Made by a program: the position numbers and the translations under genes. Source: Urechidicola croceus (GTDB taxonomy: Bacteria > Bacteroidota > Bacteroidia > Flavobacteriales > Flavobacteriaceae). Taken from it: 64,000 bases of DNA. The stretch is taken from positions 750,001 to 814,000 of the forward strand of contig NZ_CP017478.1 in the NCBI RefSeq assembly GCF_001761325.1, given 5' to 3'. Positions 42,559 to 52,043 of the stretch are shown here, one piece after another. How positions within the stretch are numbered: position 1 is the stretch's first letter; each line of letters opens with the position of its first letter. The notes under the pieces were generated by a model. The model ran no database searches. It was not told the origin of the DNA and saw nothing but the letters and a program-made list of their open reading frames with translations.

Positions 42559-44085
42559 CTATTTTAATTTATTCTCAAGTATAAGTATATCAGCATTTTT
42601 ATTATTCCATAATTCTTTATTTTCATCAGGAACTGGTGTAAAACTATAAGTAAAAGAACTGAGAATAATATCTTTATCTCCATCTTGGTCTACATCACCT
42701 GAATCCATTAATAACCATCTTCCTAATTTTGAATCTTCTATAGTTTTAGGTTCAAACTCATATGTTTTATAATTTTTGTTTTCAAGATATACAAAGGATC
42801 TCTTTGGATGATTTTTATAATCTGGAAAAGTTGATATTATACCAAAATCAAAATCACCATCCATATCAAAATCTTCAGCAACTAATCTTGTTGATCCATT
42901 AATTGAGAAAAAATATTTTTCTTCAAAATTATTTTTTCCGTCGTTTATATGAATTCTCAAACCATGATATGGTTTATGTACATAAGTCTTATCTGCATTA
43001 TCGCCATTAACAGTTACTATATCTTGAAAACCATCATTATTAAAATCAATTAATTCAAACCAACTAAGTCCATAAATAGGACTAAATCGTATTACTTTTT
43101 CTGCATCAAATCGAAAATTATCTTTTTGATAAAGAATAGTAATCGATTCATCACCCTGAGCCATTAATGCTATTAAATCATCTTTTCCATCATTATCCAT
43201 ATCTTTGGCTAAAACTCGGATAGCGCCTGGTTGATTTAATAATACCTTTTTCTCAAAAACTCCATTTTTAAAATTATGTAGTAATGTTAATTTACCAGTA
43301 TGATGTCCAAACTCACTTATGACTAATTCATCTATTCCATCTTTATCAAGGTCATGAACTAAATTATTTACCGGTCTATGCAGTACTCCTGAAACATCAA
43401 ATTGCTCATTATCACGAGTCATTATAATTTTTCCAGAAGATAACTCTGAAGGGGTCAAAACTCCAACTGCTGTTGTATAAGAAATACTGTCATTTTCGGT
43501 ATATGCAGTTACTCCACTACCAAATGAACCAATCAAAGAATTACCTTCATTTAATTTATATGAATATAAATTTCCCGAAATATCACCTGTAAGAATTCTA
43601 TTTCTTTTTTCATCAAGGTCTAAGAACGTTATTAATGATCCTGGATTTTCATCAAGCGAAATGGTATTTGCAGTAAAACTAGTTAACTCATTTGATGTAT
43701 AATTATTTCCTTGAGACATAATAGAATCTGGAGCTTTATCTAAAATGTACTTCTTTAATATTTGCCAATCTTCACGCTCAATTACTGGCTTTAATGGAAA
43801 AATACCTGCTTTGTATATCAACTCAATTTCAGGAAATGATAAACCATCATACGGATTATATCCATCATATAAAACTCCTAAACGCGCACCAACTTCAGGT
43901 ATTACACCATCTTCCCATGCTTTTTTAGGTAGATCACTTATTGAAACTGGTATATGACAACTTGTACAATAGGTTTCATATAATACTTTTCCTCTTTCCT
44001 CCTCTTTAACTGCTTTAGAACATGAACTTAAAATTAAAATTATTAAAAGAGATACTACACACTTGACTATTTTATACTGACTCAT
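42559..44085 (-). CDS. Lipoprotein with cytochrome-c motif and FG-GAP/VCBS repeats
   Basis: 508 aa. The lipobox ILSSC gives a lipidated Cys22. Residues 30-120 resemble a cytochrome c domain: GKVLYETYCTSCH is a CxxCH haem-attachment site followed by a P-rich loop. The rest is a beta-propeller-like FG-GAP array with calcium-type repeats: DLDKDGIDELVISE, DMDNDGKDDLIALM, DFNNDGFQDIVTVN, DFDMDGDFDFGII and DVDQDGDKDIILSS. It is probably at the outer surface. The function is unknown: electron transfer to, or sensing of, an extracellular partner is possible, but the methionine ligand is not obvious. Confidence 0.85.
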   Translation of the reverse strand: MSQYKIVKCVVSLLIILILSSCSKAVKEEERGKVLYETYCTSCHIPVSISDLPKKAWEDGVIPEVGARLGVLYDGYNPYDGLSFPEIELIYKAGIFPLKPVIEREDWQILKKYILDKAPDSIMSQGNNYTSNELTSFTANTISLDENPGSLITFLDLDEKRNRILTGDISGNLYSYKLNEGNSLIGSFGSGVTAYTENDSISYTTAVGVLTPSELSSGKIIMTRDNEQFDVSGVLHRPVNNLVHDLDKDGIDELVISEFGHHTGKLTLLHNFKNGVFEKKVLLNQPGAIRVLAKDMDNDGKDDLIALMAQGDESITILYQKDNFRFDAEKVIRFSPIYGLSWFELIDFNNDGFQDIVTVNGDNADKTYVHKPYHGLRIHINDGKNNFEEKYFFSINGSTRLVAEDFDMDGDFDFGIISTFPDYKNHPKRSFVYLENKNYKTYEFEPKTIEDSKLGRWLLMDSGDVDQDGDKDIILSSFTYSFTPVPDENKELWNNKNADILILENKLK

Positions 44086-44515
44086 AAGTTTTAATTAGTT
44101 AGACTCTAAAGATATTAAAAAACACAACTCATCGATTACAATAAGAAAATTAGTTTTATTTAGAACTATTCAACTCTTCATTTCAAAGACTTTTTTACTA
44201 TAAAACAAAATAAATTATATTTTTTATTAAAAAAAATAGGCTCTATACATACTGTAAATACTAGGGTTATCATATTTTATTTTATTTATTTACTTTTTTT
44301 TTTATTTTTTTTTAAAACCATACGAAGTCTTTTATCGTATATAAATTGAAGACAACAAAAAATAGATAAAGTATAACATTATGAAAACAAGTAATAACAA
44401 TAAAATTGAAACTACAAAATGTAAAATTTCGATATATTTTATTCAGTTAAAATTTGTTTAATAATGATAAAGATGTTTTGACCCCAAGAATAGACAAACC
44501 CCTTACTGAAAAGAT

Positions 44516-44558
44516 AGCTGTAATTAAAAATTTATCAACCCCACAATTAATTACAGCT
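44516..44558. repeat. Inverted repeat, 12-bp arms
   Basis: The arms AGCTGTAATTAA and TTAATTACAGCT are exact complements with a 19-nt loop. A near-copy of the left arm (AGTTGTAATTAAAA) recurs at 44932-44945. Confidence 0.7.
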
Positions 44559-45043
44559 GCTTGAAGTAAATAGGTAATCAAAACAGAATTATATAAATAT
44601 AGTATTACAATGGGAAAATTGAATTGAAAAGAATAAAATACCAGAAGCTGATATCTAAATGATAATTTATTAAATATTGAAAAAACATTTATGATAATAT
44701 TGGTTATGTAGGAACATTTAGTTTCAGCTTCTTTTAAAATGAAAAGTAATAAGTATGATTAGTTAGTATTAGTTTAAACCCCAATGACAGATGAGGAATG
44801 TGTCTCATTTTTAGTTTTTAGTAAGTAAAAAGCGATCCGAAAATTAATTTTAATTTTCTAAAAAAATAAAGACACATCCTCTAAATCATTAAAATCATAC
44901 AATTGAAATATAAAAAACAATAATCATAAAAAGTTGTAATTAAAAGTGTATTGCCCCATAAAATAATAATTGAAAAAATAGTCCCCACGACTAAGTCCCC
45001 ACAATTATTCCCCACATGAAGTGAAGTTTGCTAGTTTGATTTT

Positions 45044-45131
45044 TTAGCAGTTGTAAAACTTAATCCATTAAAGTAATCCCCAAAATTATCTTTAAAATAA
45101 GTTATTATAACTGCTAATTTTTTTTACAACT
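45044..45131 (+). promoter_or_regulatory. Possible alternative-pairing RNA element
   Basis: TTAGCAGTTGTAA (45044-45056) can pair with TTATAACTGCTAA (45105-45117), and its 3' part AGTTGTAAAA can instead pair with TTTTACAACT (45122-45131). The pairings are mutually exclusive, as in attenuators or riboswitches. It lies about 200 bp before the DUF4331 gene. No known riboswitch class is recognised. Confidence 0.35.
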
Positions 45132-45337
45132 CTTAGAGTATTAAAACTCACACTGTAAACTTATAACTCATCTCAATAAATCTTAAAAATAATTCATTTA
45201 AAATACTCTGTAAACACAAGGGTTTGCGAGAAATTATTTTTTTTATTTCAACTTTTATAAAACCACCTCTTACTTTTTCTCGTAGGTATAAGTGAGAATC
45301 AAAACAAATAATTAATTAATAACAAAATTCTTTTACG

Positions 45338-45988
45338 ATGAAAAAAATGAAAATTCTTTTAGTAACTAGTACTCTTGCCCTTGCAAGTATAATTCTAGTA
45401 GCAGCCGATCATATTGATGCGCCTGCAGTTCAAGGTGGTACAAGTGATATCACAGATTATTATGCCTTTCAAGGAGAAAATACTGATAATATAGTATTTG
45501 TTGCAAATGTACAAGGACTTCTTAGTCCATCAGCAACTGCAAATGCTTCTTTTGATGAAAACACTTTAGTTGAATTTAATATTGACACGAATGCTGACAA
45601 TATAGAAGATTTAGTTATTCAAGCAGTAGCTAGAGATGGTGAAATGTACTTTTTTGGACCTACAACCCCAAGTTCAACAGGTTTAAATAGTATGATTGAA
45701 ACATCTGCTACACAATCTAAAGTAGCTATTTCTAATTATGGCTCACAACCAACGATTCAATCAACAAATGGTATGATGCTTTTTGCTGGACCACGTGATG
45801 ATCCATTTTTCATGGATTTTGCACAGTATAGCGAAATAATTGCTGGTAATGCAACAGCATTTAACAACCCAGGAAGTGACACATTCGCCGGGAGTAATGT
45901 AATGTCAATTGTAGTTGAAGTTCCAAAATCACTTATTGGTGGAAGTGGTACTATCAATACTTGGGTAGAATCAAAAACAAAACAATAA
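45338..45988 (+). CDS. DUF4331 protein, N-terminal half-type, exported
   Basis: 216 aa with a signal peptide (KMKILLVTSTLALASIILVAA). It begins ADHIDAPAVQGGTSDITDYYAFQGENTDNIVFVANVQGLL, the defining start of the DUF4331 family (HxDaP...DItDlYaF). Further conserved strands are TLVEFNIDTNADNIEDLVI, LFAGPRDDPFFMDFAQY and SNVMSIVVEVPKSLIGG. Usual family members are much longer; this one holds only the first part, and the missing portion seems to be supplied by the next gene. It is exported, probably periplasmic or at the surface. It heads an operon with a second DUF4331-like lipoprotein. Confidence 0.88.
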   Translation: MKKMKILLVTSTLALASIILVAADHIDAPAVQGGTSDITDYYAFQGENTDNIVFVANVQGLLSPSATANASFDENTLVEFNIDTNADNIEDLVIQAVARDGEMYFFGPTTPSSTGLNSMIETSATQSKVAISNYGSQPTIQSTNGMMLFAGPRDDPFFMDFAQYSEIIAGNATAFNNPGSDTFAGSNVMSIVVEVPKSLIGGSGTINTWVESKTKQ

Positions 45989-46013
45989 TAATTAAACTAA
46001 TAAAATTAAAATT

Positions 46014-46571
46014 ATGAAAACTTTTAAATATTCAATTTTAGCAATATTTGTATCATTGGTTACCATCAGTTGTTCAGACGATGATGATAATGTTTATATG
46101 ATGCCAACTGAACCAGATTTCTCTGGAAATTATTCGCAAGCAGATCAAATGGGAAGACCAGCAGTAAACACTGTATTTGTTTCGTCTGAAAGTAAAGATA
46201 TGTTTAACACAACAATACCTTCACAACAAGCTACTAATTTTCAAAGTATGTTTCAAACAAATTTAGAAGCATTAAGTCCTGCATATACAAATCCTGGAGA
46301 TACAAATGCTTTAGGTTTGGATTCTGCAACATTTACAGGATTGCTGGCAACTGATGTTCTAAATGTAAGTTTAGACGGTACTACTACTTTTTATGATGGA
46401 ACGAATGTGTTAACAGGTCGTGCATTAGCAGATGATGTTATTACCGTTGAACTTCTATTAATTTTTGGTGGAGAAGACTTTACTGAAAACCCAACTTTAT
46501 CAAATGATAATGTGGATGCAAATGATAAAGAATTTTCAACATCCTTTCCTTACTTGGCTTCGCCTTGGTAA
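46014..46571 (+). CDS. DUF4331-like lipoprotein, C-terminal half-type
   Basis: 185 aa. The lipobox TISC (Cys20) is followed by an acidic DDDDN stretch. QMGRPAVNTVFVSSESKDMFN corresponds to the strand that opens the second half of longer DUF4331 proteins (GxPxVNxV), and LAXDVLNVSLD-type and GRALADDVITVELLLIFGGED segments match their end. It lies 25 bp after the first DUF4331 gene, so the two probably act together as one split protein. A strong hairpin with a T-run follows it. Confidence 0.8.
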   Translation: MKTFKYSILAIFVSLVTISCSDDDDNVYMMPTEPDFSGNYSQADQMGRPAVNTVFVSSESKDMFNTTIPSQQATNFQSMFQTNLEALSPAYTNPGDTNALGLDSATFTGLLATDVLNVSLDGTTTFYDGTNVLTGRALADDVITVELLLIFGGEDFTENPTLSNDNVDANDKEFSTSFPYLASPW

Positions 46572-46580
46572 AATATCTTA

Positions 46581-46611
46581 AGTATTAGGGTATTTAAAAT
46601 ACCCTAATACT
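46581..46611 (+). terminator. Internal intrinsic terminator/attenuator within the DUF4331-TonB operon
   Basis: The 15-bp arms AGTATTAGGGTATTT and AAATACCCTAATACT are exact complements with one base between, followed by six T (46611-46616). It lies 9 bp past the second DUF4331 stop and 37 bp before the TPR gene, so it should make expression of the first two genes higher than that of the TPR and TonB genes. Confidence 0.85.
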
Positions 46612-46648
46612 TTTTTCAAAAACAAACAAAAACTAAAATCAAATATTT

Positions 46649-47944
46649 ATGTCAATCAAAACTAAAATATGTAGTTACCTATCTATCCTGATTATGATAG
46701 TCAGTTGTAATACAAGCACAAAAAGTATTACAAATTCTGAAGATTATAATAAATATCTGGTAAATACAACTAATAAAAATTACCAATTAGCAAGTAGCGA
46801 ATTCGAATTTTGGACTAAAAAATTTAAAGAAAATCCAACTCAATTTCCATATTTAAGTAAAATTGCATCTGCAAATTCCCAGTTATTTAATTCAACTGGT
46901 AAAATTGAATATTTAAAAGAGGCTGAAAATAACTTAAAATTAGTAAATACTAGAACTGGTTATAAAAACTCAAGATCATTAAGATCTTTAGCCAGAAACT
47001 ACATTTCTCAACATAAATTTAAAGCAGCATTAGATTTACTTAAAAAAGCCGAAATCAACGGTGAAAATTTAAAAGATACTCACAAAATGTTATTTGATAC
47101 CTATTTAGAATTAGGTGAATATGACAATGCATTTAACTACTTATCAAGAATCAAAAACACCAATGATTTTGATTATTTAATCCGATTAGCAAAATGGAGT
47201 GATCATGAAGGCAAACTAGAATCTGCAATATTATATATGGAAAAGGCAGCCAAAATAGCCGAAAGGTCAAAAAACAATTATTTAATGCAATGGTCATATA
47301 CTAATCTTGCTGATTTTTATGGACACGCAGGAAGAATTGAAGATTCATATAATTACTATTTAAAAACTTTAAACTTAAATCCTAATGATGCATATGCAAA
47401 AAAAGGAATTGCTTGGATTGTTTTTTCTAAAGAAAGAAATCCTCAAGAAGCAACCCGTATTTTGAATGCTATCACTCAAAAATACAATACACCTGATTAT
47501 TATTTATTAAAATCAGAAATCGCAGAATACTTAGGAAATAGTCTTGAAAAAGAAGAAAATTTAAACTTTTATTTTAAATTAATAGAAGATACAAGGTATG
47601 GTGATATGTACAACGCTTACAATGTGTTATTATTTAGTAAAAATCCTTTAAAAATAAATAGAGCTTTAGAAATTTCGCAACGAGAAATTAAAAATAGACC
47701 TACTCCTCTATCTTATGATTTATTAGCATGGTCTTACTTAAATAATGGTGAGAACAAAAAAGCTTTAGAAGTTGCAACAAAAAATGTTGTAGGTGAAACT
47801 TCAGAACCCATTGTATTATACCATATTGCAGAAATTTATAAAGCAAATGGATTAACGGAAAAAGCAAAAAATCTTAAAGTAGAATTACTTGAAAGCATCT
47901 ATGAATTAGGTCCTTTAATGGAAAATAAGATTAAAAACATATAA
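46649..47944 (+). CDS. Tetratricopeptide-repeat lipoprotein
   Basis: 431 aa. A lipoprotein signal ends in IVSC (Cys20). The rest is alpha-helical with TPR-like units, e.g. RSLARNYISQHKFKAALDLLKKAEI, KMLFDTYLELGEYDNAFNYLSRI, YTNLADFYGHAGRIEDSYNYYLKTLNLNPNDAYAKKGIAWI and YDLLAWSYLNNGENKKALEVATKN. It is probably anchored in the periplasm or outer membrane, where it could scaffold the receptor encoded next: the stop is one base before the TonB receptor's ATG, implying tight coupling. Confidence 0.87.
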   Translation: MSIKTKICSYLSILIMIVSCNTSTKSITNSEDYNKYLVNTTNKNYQLASSEFEFWTKKFKENPTQFPYLSKIASANSQLFNSTGKIEYLKEAENNLKLVNTRTGYKNSRSLRSLARNYISQHKFKAALDLLKKAEINGENLKDTHKMLFDTYLELGEYDNAFNYLSRIKNTNDFDYLIRLAKWSDHEGKLESAILYMEKAAKIAERSKNNYLMQWSYTNLADFYGHAGRIEDSYNYYLKTLNLNPNDAYAKKGIAWIVFSKERNPQEATRILNAITQKYNTPDYYLLKSEIAEYLGNSLEKEENLNFYFKLIEDTRYGDMYNAYNVLLFSKNPLKINRALEISQREIKNRPTPLSYDLLAWSYLNNGENKKALEVATKNVVGETSEPIVLYHIAEIYKANGLTEKAKNLKVELLESIYELGPLMENKIKNI

Positions 47945-47945
47945 T

Positions 47946-50171
47946 ATGAAGACTATTTTACTCATGTTGTTTTTATCTATTTGTACGTTTAGTCAAGCAC
48001 AAACTTCAATTATAAATGGAAAAATTAAGGATTCATTTAATCAACCTATTGAAAATGCTTATGTTTATAACAGCAATTCTAATAACCATACACATACATT
48101 AGAAAATGGCGTGTTCATCTTAAAAAATAATAGCATTGGTGATACACTAACAATAGGTATTCTTGGGTTTCAAGAGCGAAAAATCACTTTAAAAAATGAA
48201 GATTTAGAGACAAACTTATCTATTACTCTTGAGTCAAAAGTTTTTAATCTTCAAGAGCTTGTATTGACGAATGAATTCAATCCTAATGCTACTATTACTA
48301 AATTAGATCTCGAAAGTAATCCTGTAAATTCTTCTCAAGAAATTTTAAGAAAAGTTCCAGGTTTAGTAATTGGACAGCACGCTGGCGGCGGAAAAGCGGA
48401 ACAACTTTTCTTAAGAGGATTTGATATTGATCACGGAACAGATATTAGTATATCGGTTGATGGAATGCCTGTAAATATGGTTTCACATGCACACGGACAA
48501 GGTTATAGTGATTTACATTTTGTAATCCCAGAAACCATTAAAAACATCAATTTTGGAAAAGGTCCATACAATGCCACAAAAGGAGATTTCAACACAGCTG
48601 GTTTTGTTGATTTTTCAACTAAGGATAATATAGATAATAACAAAATATCTATTGGAATAGGAGATTTTAACTCCATAAGAACCTTGGGACTTTTTAATCT
48701 ATCTGATAAAAAGGATAACCAAAACATGTATACTGCTATTGAGTATATTGAAAATGATGGGCCATTTATTTCCCCACAAAATTTTAGTCGATTGAATATA
48801 ATGACTAAATATTCAACATTATTGAATGATACCGATAAATTGTCCTTAACTGCATCACATTTTACATCAAATTGGACTGCTTCTGGACAAATTCCAACCA
48901 GAGTAATTGATAGTATTTCAAGATTTGGCTCTATTGATGATACTGAAGGAGGAAATACTTCTAGAACCAATTTTAACATTGCTCATTCTCATACGATTAA
49001 TGACAATGAAAGGTTAAAAACAAATGTGTTTTACACACATTATGATTTTGAATTGTATTCAAATTTTACATTCTTTTTGGATGACCCAATAAATGGAGAT
49101 CAAATAAAACAGAAAGAAGACCGAAATATTTTTGGATTCAATACTCAATTGGTAAAAAACAAGGATTACAATACTATTTATGCAACCTATACAAGTGGTT
49201 TAGGTTTAAGGCATGATATTTCAAACAAAAATGAATTATCTCACACATTAAATAGAAAAACTACACTTGATTATTTAAAATATGGGAATATCTACCAAAC
49301 AAATTTATATGGATTTTACAGTGCTGAATTTGAAATAGGAAAATTTAAAATTAATCCTGCTATAAGATTTGACTACTTTAAATTCATGTATGAAAACAAG
49401 TTAAGTTCAGAATATAACTTAGAATCTAAAACAAAAAATATTTTTAGCCCTAAACTAAATATTTCATTCAGTCAGAATAAAAACTCACTTTGGTTTTTAA
49501 AATCAGGTATTGGATTTCATTCAAATGATACTCGAGTTGTTGTTAGTAAAAATGGAAAAGATATTTTACCTAAAGCATATGGAGTAGATTTTGGTAATAT
49601 TTGGAAACCAACTTCAAAACTTGTATTAAATACAGCATTTTGGTATCTATTATCAGAACAGGAGTTTGTATATGTTGGTGATGCAGGAATTGTAGAGCCA
49701 AGTGGTAAATCTCAAAGGTTTGGCCTTGATTTAGGTATTAGATATCAATTTAATGATTATCTCTATTTTGATACAGATGCCACATTAACCAACGCTAAAA
49801 ACCTTGATTTACCAAGTCGTGAAAACTATATACCCTTAGCACCAGATTTTACAGTATCAGGAGGGCTTTCATTAAATAATTATAAGAGTTTTTCTGGAGG
49901 AATAAGATATAGGTATATTGATGATAGACCTGCAAATGAAGATAATTCAATAAATGCTCAAGGCTATTTAATAACAGATTTTAACTTGAATTATACATTC
50001 GGAAAAACTACAATAGGAATAGCAATTGAGAACTTGTTTGATATTGAGTGGAATGAAACTCAGTTTGCAACTGAATCAAGATTAAGTTATGAAAGTCAAC
50101 CTGTTGAAGAAATACATTTCACTCCAGGAACACCTTTTTATTTTAAAACTTCAATAAACTATGCGTTCTAG
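47946..50171 (+). CDS. TonB-dependent outer-membrane receptor
   Basis: 741 aa. A signal peptide (KTILLMLFLSICTFSQAQ) is followed by a carboxypeptidase-regulatory-like domain (SIINGKIKDSFNQPIENAYVYNS, to ~95), a plug domain (SQEILRKVPGLVIGQHAGGGKAEQLFLRGFDIDHGTDISISVDGMPVNM) and a 22-strand-type barrel ending FYFKTSINYAF with a C-terminal Phe. The plug is unusually His-rich (VSHAHGQGYSDLHF), which may mean metal or haem binding; no SusD partner follows, so it is not a glycan SusC. It is the last gene of the DUF4331 module and is closed by a strong terminator. Confidence 0.93.
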   Translation: MKTILLMLFLSICTFSQAQTSIINGKIKDSFNQPIENAYVYNSNSNNHTHTLENGVFILKNNSIGDTLTIGILGFQERKITLKNEDLETNLSITLESKVFNLQELVLTNEFNPNATITKLDLESNPVNSSQEILRKVPGLVIGQHAGGGKAEQLFLRGFDIDHGTDISISVDGMPVNMVSHAHGQGYSDLHFVIPETIKNINFGKGPYNATKGDFNTAGFVDFSTKDNIDNNKISIGIGDFNSIRTLGLFNLSDKKDNQNMYTAIEYIENDGPFISPQNFSRLNIMTKYSTLLNDTDKLSLTASHFTSNWTASGQIPTRVIDSISRFGSIDDTEGGNTSRTNFNIAHSHTINDNERLKTNVFYTHYDFELYSNFTFFLDDPINGDQIKQKEDRNIFGFNTQLVKNKDYNTIYATYTSGLGLRHDISNKNELSHTLNRKTTLDYLKYGNIYQTNLYGFYSAEFEIGKFKINPAIRFDYFKFMYENKLSSEYNLESKTKNIFSPKLNISFSQNKNSLWFLKSGIGFHSNDTRVVVSKNGKDILPKAYGVDFGNIWKPTSKLVLNTAFWYLLSEQEFVYVGDAGIVEPSGKSQRFGLDLGIRYQFNDYLYFDTDATLTNAKNLDLPSRENYIPLAPDFTVSGGLSLNNYKSFSGGIRYRYIDDRPANEDNSINAQGYLITDFNLNYTFGKTTIGIAIENLFDIEWNETQFATESRLSYESQPVEEIHFTPGTPFYFKTSINYAF

Positions 50172-50194
50172 TTTTTTTTAGTTTTTTGTTTGGT

Positions 50195-50228
50195 GAAAGC
50201 GTTTATTTAATATTAAATAAACGCTTTC
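50195..50228 (+). terminator. Intrinsic terminator of the TonB receptor operon
   Basis: A perfect 34-bp palindrome (left half GAAAGCGTTTATTTAAT) is followed by a short T-rich tract, 23 bp past the receptor stop. Confidence 0.8.
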
Positions 50229-50420
50229 TTATTTAGTAATAACCTACTTATTTGATAACTTACCTTTAAAATTATTTGACTATCTTGATTTAACTATTGT
50301 AAATGAGTAAATCAAAAATAACATGAAGTTAAATTGAGATAATATATTGTATTAAAACTAATTTTAAATACTTTATCATTCTATAAATCGAATCCAAACA
50401 AACATTAGAACAAAAAAAAA

Positions 50421-50436
50421 GACGCTTAAAAGCGTC
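50421..50436 (-). terminator. Intrinsic terminator of the sigma/anti-sigma operon
   Basis: GACGCTT-aa-AAGCGTC is followed on the minus strand by a U-run (nine A at 50412-50420 on plus). It lies 23 bp beyond the anti-sigma stop. Confidence 0.88.
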
Positions 50437-50458
50437 TTTAATTATTATGTAAAATTTC

Positions 50459-51265
50459 TTATGAAGTACTTACTGCTCCTAAAGTATATAATTGCTCTAA
50501 AGTTGGTGATTCGCTTCCTCCAGCAGGTTCTAATGTGATACCAAATGCTTCTGAATCATTAATATTAGCTATATTAAATATTTTATTATCATCAGAAATG
50601 AAATCATCTATAGTTCCCAAACTTGTAGGTGTTAAAGGATCTAATTTCAACGACCAAACTTGATATACTTTACCTTTAGGTGGCTCTGGAAGTCCTTGAG
50701 CATCTAAATAAATACTTTTGGTCTTTTTATCCCAATAAACTTTTGCATAAGATTCAGGAGAGATTGCTTGTCCTCCTAATGGAATTTCAACTATATCTCT
50801 ATCTCTAAAAATAGCAACTAATTTTTCAGTTTCTTCTAAGTTTCCTTTAGCTTCTTCTATTTGCTGTTCTAATAATTGTTTATTGTCTTGAGCAATTTCA
50901 ACTTGTGATTTAAGTTTGCTATTTTCATTAATAAACCATAACAATCCTGCAGTCAAAAATATAGAGGCTGCCCAACCTGTATATCTAAACCAATTTGATT
51001 TTGGTTTGTTAATATCAATTACTTTTACTTCTTTATTATCTGATAAATTTAATTTACTTTTTAAATGTTCAAAAGTGTATTTACTATTGTTTGGTACTAC
51101 AGCAGCCGTTAATTTTACAATTGATGTTTCTATATCCAAAACTTCTTGTAAAATTTCTGGGTGTTTTTGCATCATTTCATATACTTCTTGACTTTCCTTT
51201 TCAGAAAGTGCTCCAGCAATATAAAGTTCTAAAACTCCAGATTCTATGTATTCTTTTTTCGTCAT
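50459..51265 (-). CDS. Membrane anti-sigma factor (RskA-like)
   Basis: 268 aa. The cytoplasmic N-terminal domain (YIESGVLELYIAGALSEKESQEVYEMMQKHPEI) matches the sigma-binding domain of RskA-type anti-sigma factors, without a zinc-binding HxxxCxxC. One transmembrane helix (WFRYTGWAASIFLTAGLLWFI, about 91-111) is followed by a periplasmic coiled coil and a C-terminal RskA domain (YWDKKTKSIYLDAQGLPEPPKGKVYQVWSL to FGITLEPAGGSESPTLEQLY). It should hold the adjacent ECF sigma factor at the membrane until an envelope signal triggers its release. It lies 6 bp after the sigma gene. Confidence 0.92.
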   Translation of the reverse strand: MTKKEYIESGVLELYIAGALSEKESQEVYEMMQKHPEILQEVLDIETSIVKLTAAVVPNNSKYTFEHLKSKLNLSDNKEVKVIDINKPKSNWFRYTGWAASIFLTAGLLWFINENSKLKSQVEIAQDNKQLLEQQIEEAKGNLEETEKLVAIFRDRDIVEIPLGGQAISPESYAKVYWDKKTKSIYLDAQGLPEPPKGKVYQVWSLKLDPLTPTSLGTIDDFISDDNKIFNIANINDSEAFGITLEPAGGSESPTLEQLYTLGAVSTS

Positions 51266-51271
51266 AGCCTT

Positions 51272-51802
51272 TTAAATATCAAGCATAGTTCTAAGTTCAC
51301 CAATACAGTTTCTGTTTCTTGTTTTTATTGTACCAAGTGGTATTAACAATTCTTCAGAAACTTCTTTTTGAGTATACCCTTTAAAATATAAAAGTTCAAT
51401 TACCTGCTTACATTTTTCTGCAAGTTTATTTACGAATCCTTTTAAACCTATGGTATTCATCTTATCACCTAAATTCTCGCTTGTCTCTAATATATCTACG
51501 AAAAATTGAGCATCAAGGTTTTTTTGAGAATTCTTAAATGATTTGGATCTTGTTTGATCAATAGCAGCATTTCTTGCTATATTCAATATCCAAGTAAAAA
51601 ATCGACCTTTATTTGGTGAGTAGGAACTAGAATTATTCCATACTTTAATAAAAACATCTTGCATTATTTCTTCTGCAATGTCATTATCTCTTACAATATT
51701 ATAAATGACGCCGAGAATACTTTTACTATACATACCGTAAAGTTTCTCGAATGCTTTAACATCTTTTTCTTGAAATTTTTTAATCAGAATATCTTGATCC
51801 AT
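51272..51802 (-). CDS. ECF-type RNA polymerase sigma factor
   Basis: 176 aa from the ATG at 51802 (MDQDILIKKFQEKDVKAFEKLY), the usual family N-terminus; an alternative start at 51844 would add 14 residues. Region 2 reads AEEIMQDVFIKVWNNSSSYSPNKGRFFTWILNIARNAAID and region 4 reads VIELLYFKGYTQKEVSEELLIPLGTIKTRNR, the -35-recognising HTH. Partnered with the downstream RskA-like anti-sigma gene. The two genes converge on the DUF4331/TonB operon, a plausible but unproven target. Confidence 0.93.
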   Translation of the reverse strand: MDQDILIKKFQEKDVKAFEKLYGMYSKSILGVIYNIVRDNDIAEEIMQDVFIKVWNNSSSYSPNKGRFFTWILNIARNAAIDQTRSKSFKNSQKNLDAQFFVDILETSENLGDKMNTIGLKGFVNKLAEKCKQVIELLYFKGYTQKEVSEELLIPLGTIKTRNRNCIGELRTMLDI

Positions 51803-52043
51803 ATATAATTTATCTAATGCTAAAATATATAATTTATCATTCAATTCATAACTCTACTCCTATTAAGATATATTGAAATAGAATTAATTTGAAATATCTA
51901 AACAAGAAATTACAAAACACATAAAAATATTAGAAAATACTAGATTAATCTATATCAATAGTATAGGTCGAGAAAAATTATGTAACATTAATACAAAATA
52001 CAATTGAAAATTTAGAATCGTACTTAGATAATAATGTATAAAA

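Follow-up and report, generated by a model that had tools for sequence, protein, structure and literature searches.

The closest described systems are SigH/RshA of Corynebacterium glutamicum, SigK/RskA (ECF18/ECF19) of Mycobacterium tuberculosis and FecI/FecR/FecA, in which an extracytoplasmic function (ECF) sigma factor, an anti-sigma factor and a TonB-dependent receptor occur together. One report describes a promoter inside sigH that SigH itself reads and from which only rshA is transcribed, for which a quick shut-off of the response was proposed, while the sigma and anti-sigma genes are transcribed from housekeeping promoters (PMC3489674). The sigK gene of M. tuberculosis is autoregulated (PMC7509140, PMC7406223). 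The locus analyzed here occupies positions 45338-51802 of the window, a stretch of 64,000 nucleotides from Urechidicola croceus (Flavobacteriaceae; contig NZ_CP017478.1, positions 750,001 to 814,000), an organism whose 3.43 Mb genome is a single contig. It consists of two genes, D1 and D2, for the halves of a DUF4331 protein, followed by genes for a tetratricopeptide repeat (TPR) lipoprotein and a TonB-dependent receptor, and it ends against an oppositely oriented ECF sigma/anti-sigma pair. With a probability of roughly three in four, judged from sequence comparison, the sigma factor directly transcribes D1-D2-TPR-receptor and, through a promoter lying within the sigma coding sequence, the anti-sigma gene. 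The type of circuit and the class of sigma factor are already known. The protein family and the regulon are undescribed in the open-licence literature searched: a full-text search found no paper naming DUF4331 or PF14224, and the papers listed for embedded promoters and flavobacterial ECF promoters showed no description of this one.

The sigma factor (176 residues, 51272-51802, minus strand; an alternative TTG start is also open at 51844) matches sigma-70 regions 2 and 4 in Pfam. Its best NCBIfam match is SigK (NF007228), with 130.5 bits, below the cut-off of 226, and the closest sequence in the PDB is also SigK (4nqw, E 4.7e-21). The adjoining anti-sigma factor (268 residues, 50459-51265, minus strand) matches RskA_C with 64.2 bits against a cut-off of 29.4, and no FecR model is among its Pfam matches. 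The pair thus resembles SigK/RskA. However, two cysteines of the sigma factor, invariant in 75 of 76 sequences, lie outside the columns of C133 and C183 of SigK in the alignment to 4nqw, which was read by eye.

Of 249 genomes sampled from the same bacterial family, 104 contain DUF4331, the host's among them. The locus set comprises 101 loci, namely the window and 100 fetched loci of up to 20 kb each from 99 family genomes; the DUF4331-positive genomes G023, G052, G222 and G173 were left out and G083 supplied two loci. Genes of the sigma cluster are present in 79 of these loci and the anti-sigma gene in 78, where it lies convergently downstream of the operon in 77 cases and, in one, upstream in the same orientation. 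In some further genomes (loci L158-L161 and L164) the pair stands upstream of D1 and points away from it, showing that the linkage survives rearrangement. Orthologs of the anti-sigma factor (E 1e-40 or better) occur in 97 of the 104 DUF4331-positive genomes as against 15 of the 145 negative ones.

The predicted sigma-dependent promoter of the operon, AAAACC-N16-CGTAGGTA (45259-45288, plus strand), is an exact match to the motif and lies 49 nt before the start of D1. In a first survey of 97 loci, from which four lacking the DHxDxP anchor in D1 had been dropped, AAACC-N14-19-CGTA was found upstream of D1 in 85, with a spacing of exactly 16 nt in 76. The consensus is TTAACAAAACC-N16-CGTAGGTA, and CGTA ends a median of 45 nt before the start codon. 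When all 101 loci were counted, the motif preceded D1 in 91 of the 96 loci whose genome has an anti-sigma ortholog and in none of the five others. Most simply, the motif would be read by the adjacent sigma factor, and we infer that it is. As a control, AAACC-N14-19-CGTA was also sought upstream of 1843 further genes in these loci, over a distance of 260 nt. The 82 occurrences are distributed over anti-sigma genes (58/75), DUF547 genes (10/13), glycosyltransferase genes (9/13; both family names rest on one scanned member each) and the remaining genes (5/1742). The related pattern AAACC-N15-17-CGTANNTA has 178 matches in the loci, compared with 2 for its reverse.

The sigma gene itself contains a second site, AAAACC-N16-CGTAGATA (51493-51522, minus strand), about 227 nt ahead of the anti-sigma start. 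Throughout the loci, 58 motif sites are situated within sigma genes ahead of the anti-sigma gene, mostly about 220 nt before it, and AACC-N16-CGTA is present in 70 of the 76 sigma genes that have an anti-sigma neighbor. The seven clustered sigma genes without such a neighbor lack the site at the aligned place. The site is written in synonymous codons: phenylalanine is TTC in 75 of 75 sequences (background frequency 0.24), valine is GTA in 75 of 75 (0.41) and asparagine is AAC in 74 of 75 (0.39). These are the three most constrained of 70 testable synonymous columns, with binomial P values between 1e-47 and 5e-29 as compared with 4e-9 for the next column; the test treats related genomes as independent and so overstates their independence, a fault common to all 70 columns. 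All three codons belong to the -35 and -10 elements, which are spaced as at the D1 site. In the DUF4331-negative genomes viewed (L202, L204 and L205) the embedded site is kept in three of three. We infer that it is an active promoter for the anti-sigma gene. The likeness to SigH/RshA lies in a target-promoter motif placed inside the sigma gene ahead of the anti-sigma gene. However, the promoter there is TGGAAGA / TGTTAAA, the bacterium belongs to another phylum and the regulon is one of disulphide and heat stress; moreover, that circuit was shown experimentally, whereas the Urechidicola case is known from comparative sequence alone.

The circuit would operate as follows. The ECF sigma factor is presumably held by its RskA-type membrane anti-sigma factor until an envelope signal releases it. 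The freed sigma factor would bind promoters of the AAAACC-N16-CGTA type and transcribe D1-D2-TPR-receptor, while the embedded promoter would drive the anti-sigma gene alone and shut off the response by negative feedback. D1 and D2 would act as a pair in the envelope, and the receptor would import or sense some small ligand, for which a transition metal or a metal chelate is the likeliest candidate. The DUF4331 family would in this way gain a likely regulator, a promoter sequence, a list of partners and the question of a split protein. An inhibitor's promoter that is concealed in conserved synonymous codons, as in 70 of the 76 sigma genes, would be missed by gene-by-gene annotation; its position in such codons opens the feedback loop to direct test through silent recoding.

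Several observations weigh against this reading. None of 83 sigma-cluster genes is preceded by a motif of the AAACC...CGTA type, the only type sought, so that classical positive autoregulation, as known for sigK, appears to be missing at least through this motif. Five of the 96 D1 loci in anti-sigma-positive genomes lack the motif, and it occurs before the gene in just 2 of 17 loci with a fused DUF4331 gene. In the host genome the strict motif has fewer matches than its reverse, 3 as against 8. In the form with N16 and CGTAGGTA and with one mismatch allowed, the motif has three matches, two in the locus and one elsewhere, and its reverse seven. The number of matches in this genome therefore proves nothing by itself, and what counts is their clustering: the three strict matches all lie inside 7.2 kb. 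The third of them (44314-44343, plus strand) is situated 1 kb upstream of D1 and has no gene behind it. Finally, 11 of 20 unlinked receptor genes, discussed below, lack the motif.

No open reading frame (ORF) longer than 44 residues follows the 44314 site. A decayed copy of D1-D2 there was considered and rejected: a tblastn search with 2527 ORFs gave no match in 44086-45337 at E 1e-3, while the same query set gave 127 matches on the D1 gene, and the best of seven family profiles reached only E 0.054 in this interval.

D1 (45338-45988, plus strand, 216 residues) has an N-terminal hydrophobic helix followed by DHIDAP and is predicted to be exported. It matches PF14224 with 83.3 bits (cut-off 27) over profile positions 2-76 and 132-242. 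D2 (46014-46571, plus strand, 185 residues) looks like a lipoprotein, with a lipobox-like Cys20 that is kept in 99% of 104 sequences, and matches the same profile with 60.8 bits over positions 245-421, without overlap with D1. Both are thus above the cut-off, yet they are two proteins instead of one, and neither carries the whole 421-position domain in one chain. This bears out an earlier note on this DNA, which had taken the two consecutive exported proteins for the halves of a DUF4331 protein and had called for a survey of the gene order. That survey showed D2 immediately behind D1 in every one of the 101 loci, at a median distance of 24 bp, which makes the pairing more than chance. The split is a conserved arrangement and not gene damage.

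In a sample of the phylum, other classes included, DUF4331 was found in 38 of 296 genomes. When this list was read by eye, 18 genomes had one chain with the whole domain and 20 had the split form, 12 of them in the same family and 8 in two other families. The intact fused chains have 565-1024 residues, and one open frame has 1526. In profile comparisons D1 aligns with one part of the fused protein and D2 with the part that follows it; they do not match each other, and homology between the two was rejected (probability 11%). Because fused homologs exist elsewhere (a Rosetta-stone pattern), D1 and D2 are probably two parts of one DUF4331 protein that function together in the envelope. The AlphaFold2 model of D1 is a beta-sandwich with a mean predicted local distance difference test score (pLDDT) of 86.4; the poor model of a fused protein, with a pLDDT of 48, speaks against this pairing. 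No known fold could be assigned to D1: the best Foldseek match had an E value of 0.05, with TM-scores below 0.3 among the 50 matches listed, and the best VIA-align matches, to antibody domains, had Z scores no higher than 6.4, a range that this tool calls common. The Pfam matches of D1 and D2 include no type IX secretion system sorting domain, whereas two fused homologs that were scanned match it, one above and one just below the cut-off.

The 17 fused loci, from other Bacteroidota and up to 20 kb long, have a TPR homolog downstream in 14 cases and a receptor homolog in 7 by our own count. By the same count, HupE/UreJ is in the neighborhood of 5, one of these confirmed by Pfam, and sigma and anti-sigma genes are near 3. 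The host genome has one HupE/UreJ copy, about 1.8 Mb from the locus in contig coordinates. Tandem D1-D2-D1-D2 duplications stand ahead of a single TPR gene in loci L037, L042 and L111. The genome of locus L205 (G184), which has no DUF4331 match, keeps the sigma, anti-sigma and TPR genes as well as motif sites, including one that lies 222 nt ahead of the TPR gene, as if D1-D2 had been lost.

The TPR lipoprotein (46649-47944, plus strand, 431 residues; matches to TPR families) has a clustered homolog in 96 of the 101 loci. A gap of 1 bp separates its gene from that of the receptor (47946-50171, plus strand, 741 residues), and beyond it stands the RskA-type sigma system, as the earlier note had described and as coordinates and Pfam agree. 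The proposal in that note that the sigma pair controls the operon is supported by a motif that the operon shares with the anti-sigma gene and with some of the unlinked receptors. Two ideas about the receptor find no support. As an obligate member it is disfavored by its place directly behind the TPR gene in just 32 of 101 loci; as a signaling input it is disfavored by the lack of an STN domain among its Pfam matches and by an anti-sigma factor that is RskA-like rather than FecR-like. In loci L041, L042, L121 and L123 a protein of 151-169 residues takes the receptor's place, and the one viewed resembles, by eye, just the end of a TonB receptor barrel.

The receptor has a His-rich N-terminal domain and a plug; its Pfam matches are Plug, two carboxypeptidase-regulatory-like models (CarbopepD_reg_2 among them) and a sub-threshold CooC_C. 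Histidines 48, 50, 145, 163, 181, 183, 191, 525 and 724 are identical in 32 of 32 aligned receptors, and a tenth (305) in 97% of them. Homologs of the receptor (E 1e-40 or better) occur in at least 104 of the 249 genomes, a lower bound because only four candidates per genome were scored. Upstream of 20 unlinked receptors, all from anti-sigma-positive genomes, AAACC-N15-17-CGTANNTA was found in 9 regions (the strict form in 3) and the reversed control in none. The strict motif is nowhere in 15 of 20 anti-sigma-negative control genomes, which is a weak control, the strict form being rare before receptors. A small ORF with at least 8 histidines lies ahead of 16 of the 20 unlinked receptors, and in 8 of the 9 motif-bearing regions the motif is upstream of it. 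Five histidines are invariant among ten of these His-rich companions, and five of the ten, when scanned, gave no Pfam family match at E 0.01. The nine invariant receptor histidines, the His-rich companion and the HupE/UreJ neighbors elsewhere tentatively favor a transition metal or its chelate as the ligand, though this assignment could easily prove wrong. The best PDB profile matches of the receptor, PqqU/YncD (E 5e-11) and BtuB (E 4e-7), tell against it: although very remote, these nearest solved relatives are transporters of PQQ and B12 and not metal-ion receptors.

The main rival to uptake is an envelope-stress or adhesion regulon, in which the sigma factor would sense redox state or envelope damage, D1/D2 and the fasciclin-like and ferritin-like proteins would protect the cell surface on which they sit, and the receptor would be an ordinary member. 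It is a possibility to be taken seriously, although we do not expect it to be correct. The invariant cysteine pair of the sigma factor would suit it. A Cu/Zn superoxide dismutase family (one member identified) occurs in 36 of the 101 loci, and in 77 of them the gene divergent directly upstream of D1 belongs to a family with the LETM1-related biofilm-associated protein (NF040639), an identity that rests on one member. The window has no LETM1-related gene in that place. Of the strict-motif matches listed, twenty sites were chosen, three within sigma genes in DUF4331-negative genomes and a further 17. Single sites among these precede a fasciclin gene (L203), a member of a SigK-regulated family, and genes for a ferritin-like protein (L200) and LpxR (L191). 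However, every such stress gene stands behind one site only, and a ligand is suggested by the receptor, by the His-rich protein that accompanies it and by the HupE/UreJ neighbors. The chosen sites also precede genes for DUF2064 (L206), lectin-domain proteins (L192 and L198) and a sensor kinase (L193), a receptor of the same family as that of the window (L197), a gene for a His-rich protein with such a receptor behind it (L199 and L207) and two lipoproteins alike by eye (L195 and L196). Five of the 17 (L189, L190, L194, L201 and L208) are inside genes or geneless and look like chance.

A haem or siderophore receptor operon is improbable. The receptor does match the TonB-hemin (TIGR01785) and TonB-siderophor models, but with 67 bits against a cut-off of 316.85 and 59.9 bits against 223.5, and the haem-receptor motif FRAP or NP[NDE]L was not found in it.

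That a different ECF sigma factor reads the motif, the adjacent pair being merely linked, is quite improbable, even though flavobacterial genomes of this kind hold several ECF sigma factors. The D1 motif is absent from all five loci in genomes without an anti-sigma ortholog. The strict form AAAACC-N16-CGTARRTA is present in 86 of the 104 DUF4331-positive and 26 of the 145 negative genomes, while its reverse has 99 and 124 matches, respectively. The motif follows the anti-sigma ortholog even where DUF4331 is missing: it is found in 83 of 97 genomes with both and 12 of 15 with the ortholog alone, but in 3 of 7 with DUF4331 alone and 14 of 130 with neither, counts to which the copy within the sigma gene contributes a part.

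The site inside the sigma gene might alternatively reflect a constraint on the protein or messenger RNA, or produce a sigma-4-only polypeptide. The encoded residues N-L...F-V-D-I are indeed conserved too, but the constraint is on synonymous codons and at the -35/-10 spacing of the D1 site, and the shorter product was rejected since an in-frame ATG lies within 120 nt in just 9 of 60 cases. These explanations are accordingly very improbable. Signaling of the FecI/FecR/FecA type, from a ligand-sensing TonB receptor to the sigma pair beside it, is hardly to be expected, given a receptor without an STN match that is so often not behind the TPR gene and an RskA_C anti-sigma factor.

In its widest form, the interpretation would be an undescribed, phylum-wide metal-handling system that combines DUF4331 as a metal binder in two parts in the envelope, a TPR lipoprotein, a His-rich TonB receptor and HupE/UreJ under one RskA-held sigma factor, with the inhibitor's promoter written as synonymous codons and a small RNA from the operon tail in a subset of genomes. 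As a whole this combination is unlikely to be correct.

The tail of the operon (50172-50231, plus strand) is a T-rich stretch (variant TTTTTTGTTTG) followed by a terminator-like hairpin. Related tail elements are seen at L038, L044, L051, L072 and other loci. Over the 3.9 Mb of strand-bases that the loci amount to, the T-rich element TTTTTTGTTAG was counted 47 times, and 37 of the 101 tails contain it. Sixteen tails have the sigma motif between -40 and +120 relative to the final stop codon of the operon, 13 of them have both, and a small RNA may be transcribed from the motif-bearing ones. Pairing of the tail element with the D1 leader was rejected, the leader ranking first in 2 of 37 loci where 1.98 are expected. 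No conserved RNA structure was predicted for the tail from a gappy alignment of 37 sequences (energy 0). Rfam gave no match in window positions 44000-52000 at E 1, and its one match in six loci at the gathering threshold is a signal recognition particle RNA about 4 kb from the L051 tail. No recurring family was found in the other loci at the place next to the operon that is taken in the window by an FG-GAP repeat protein with one CxxCH haem-binding motif (42559-44085, minus strand).

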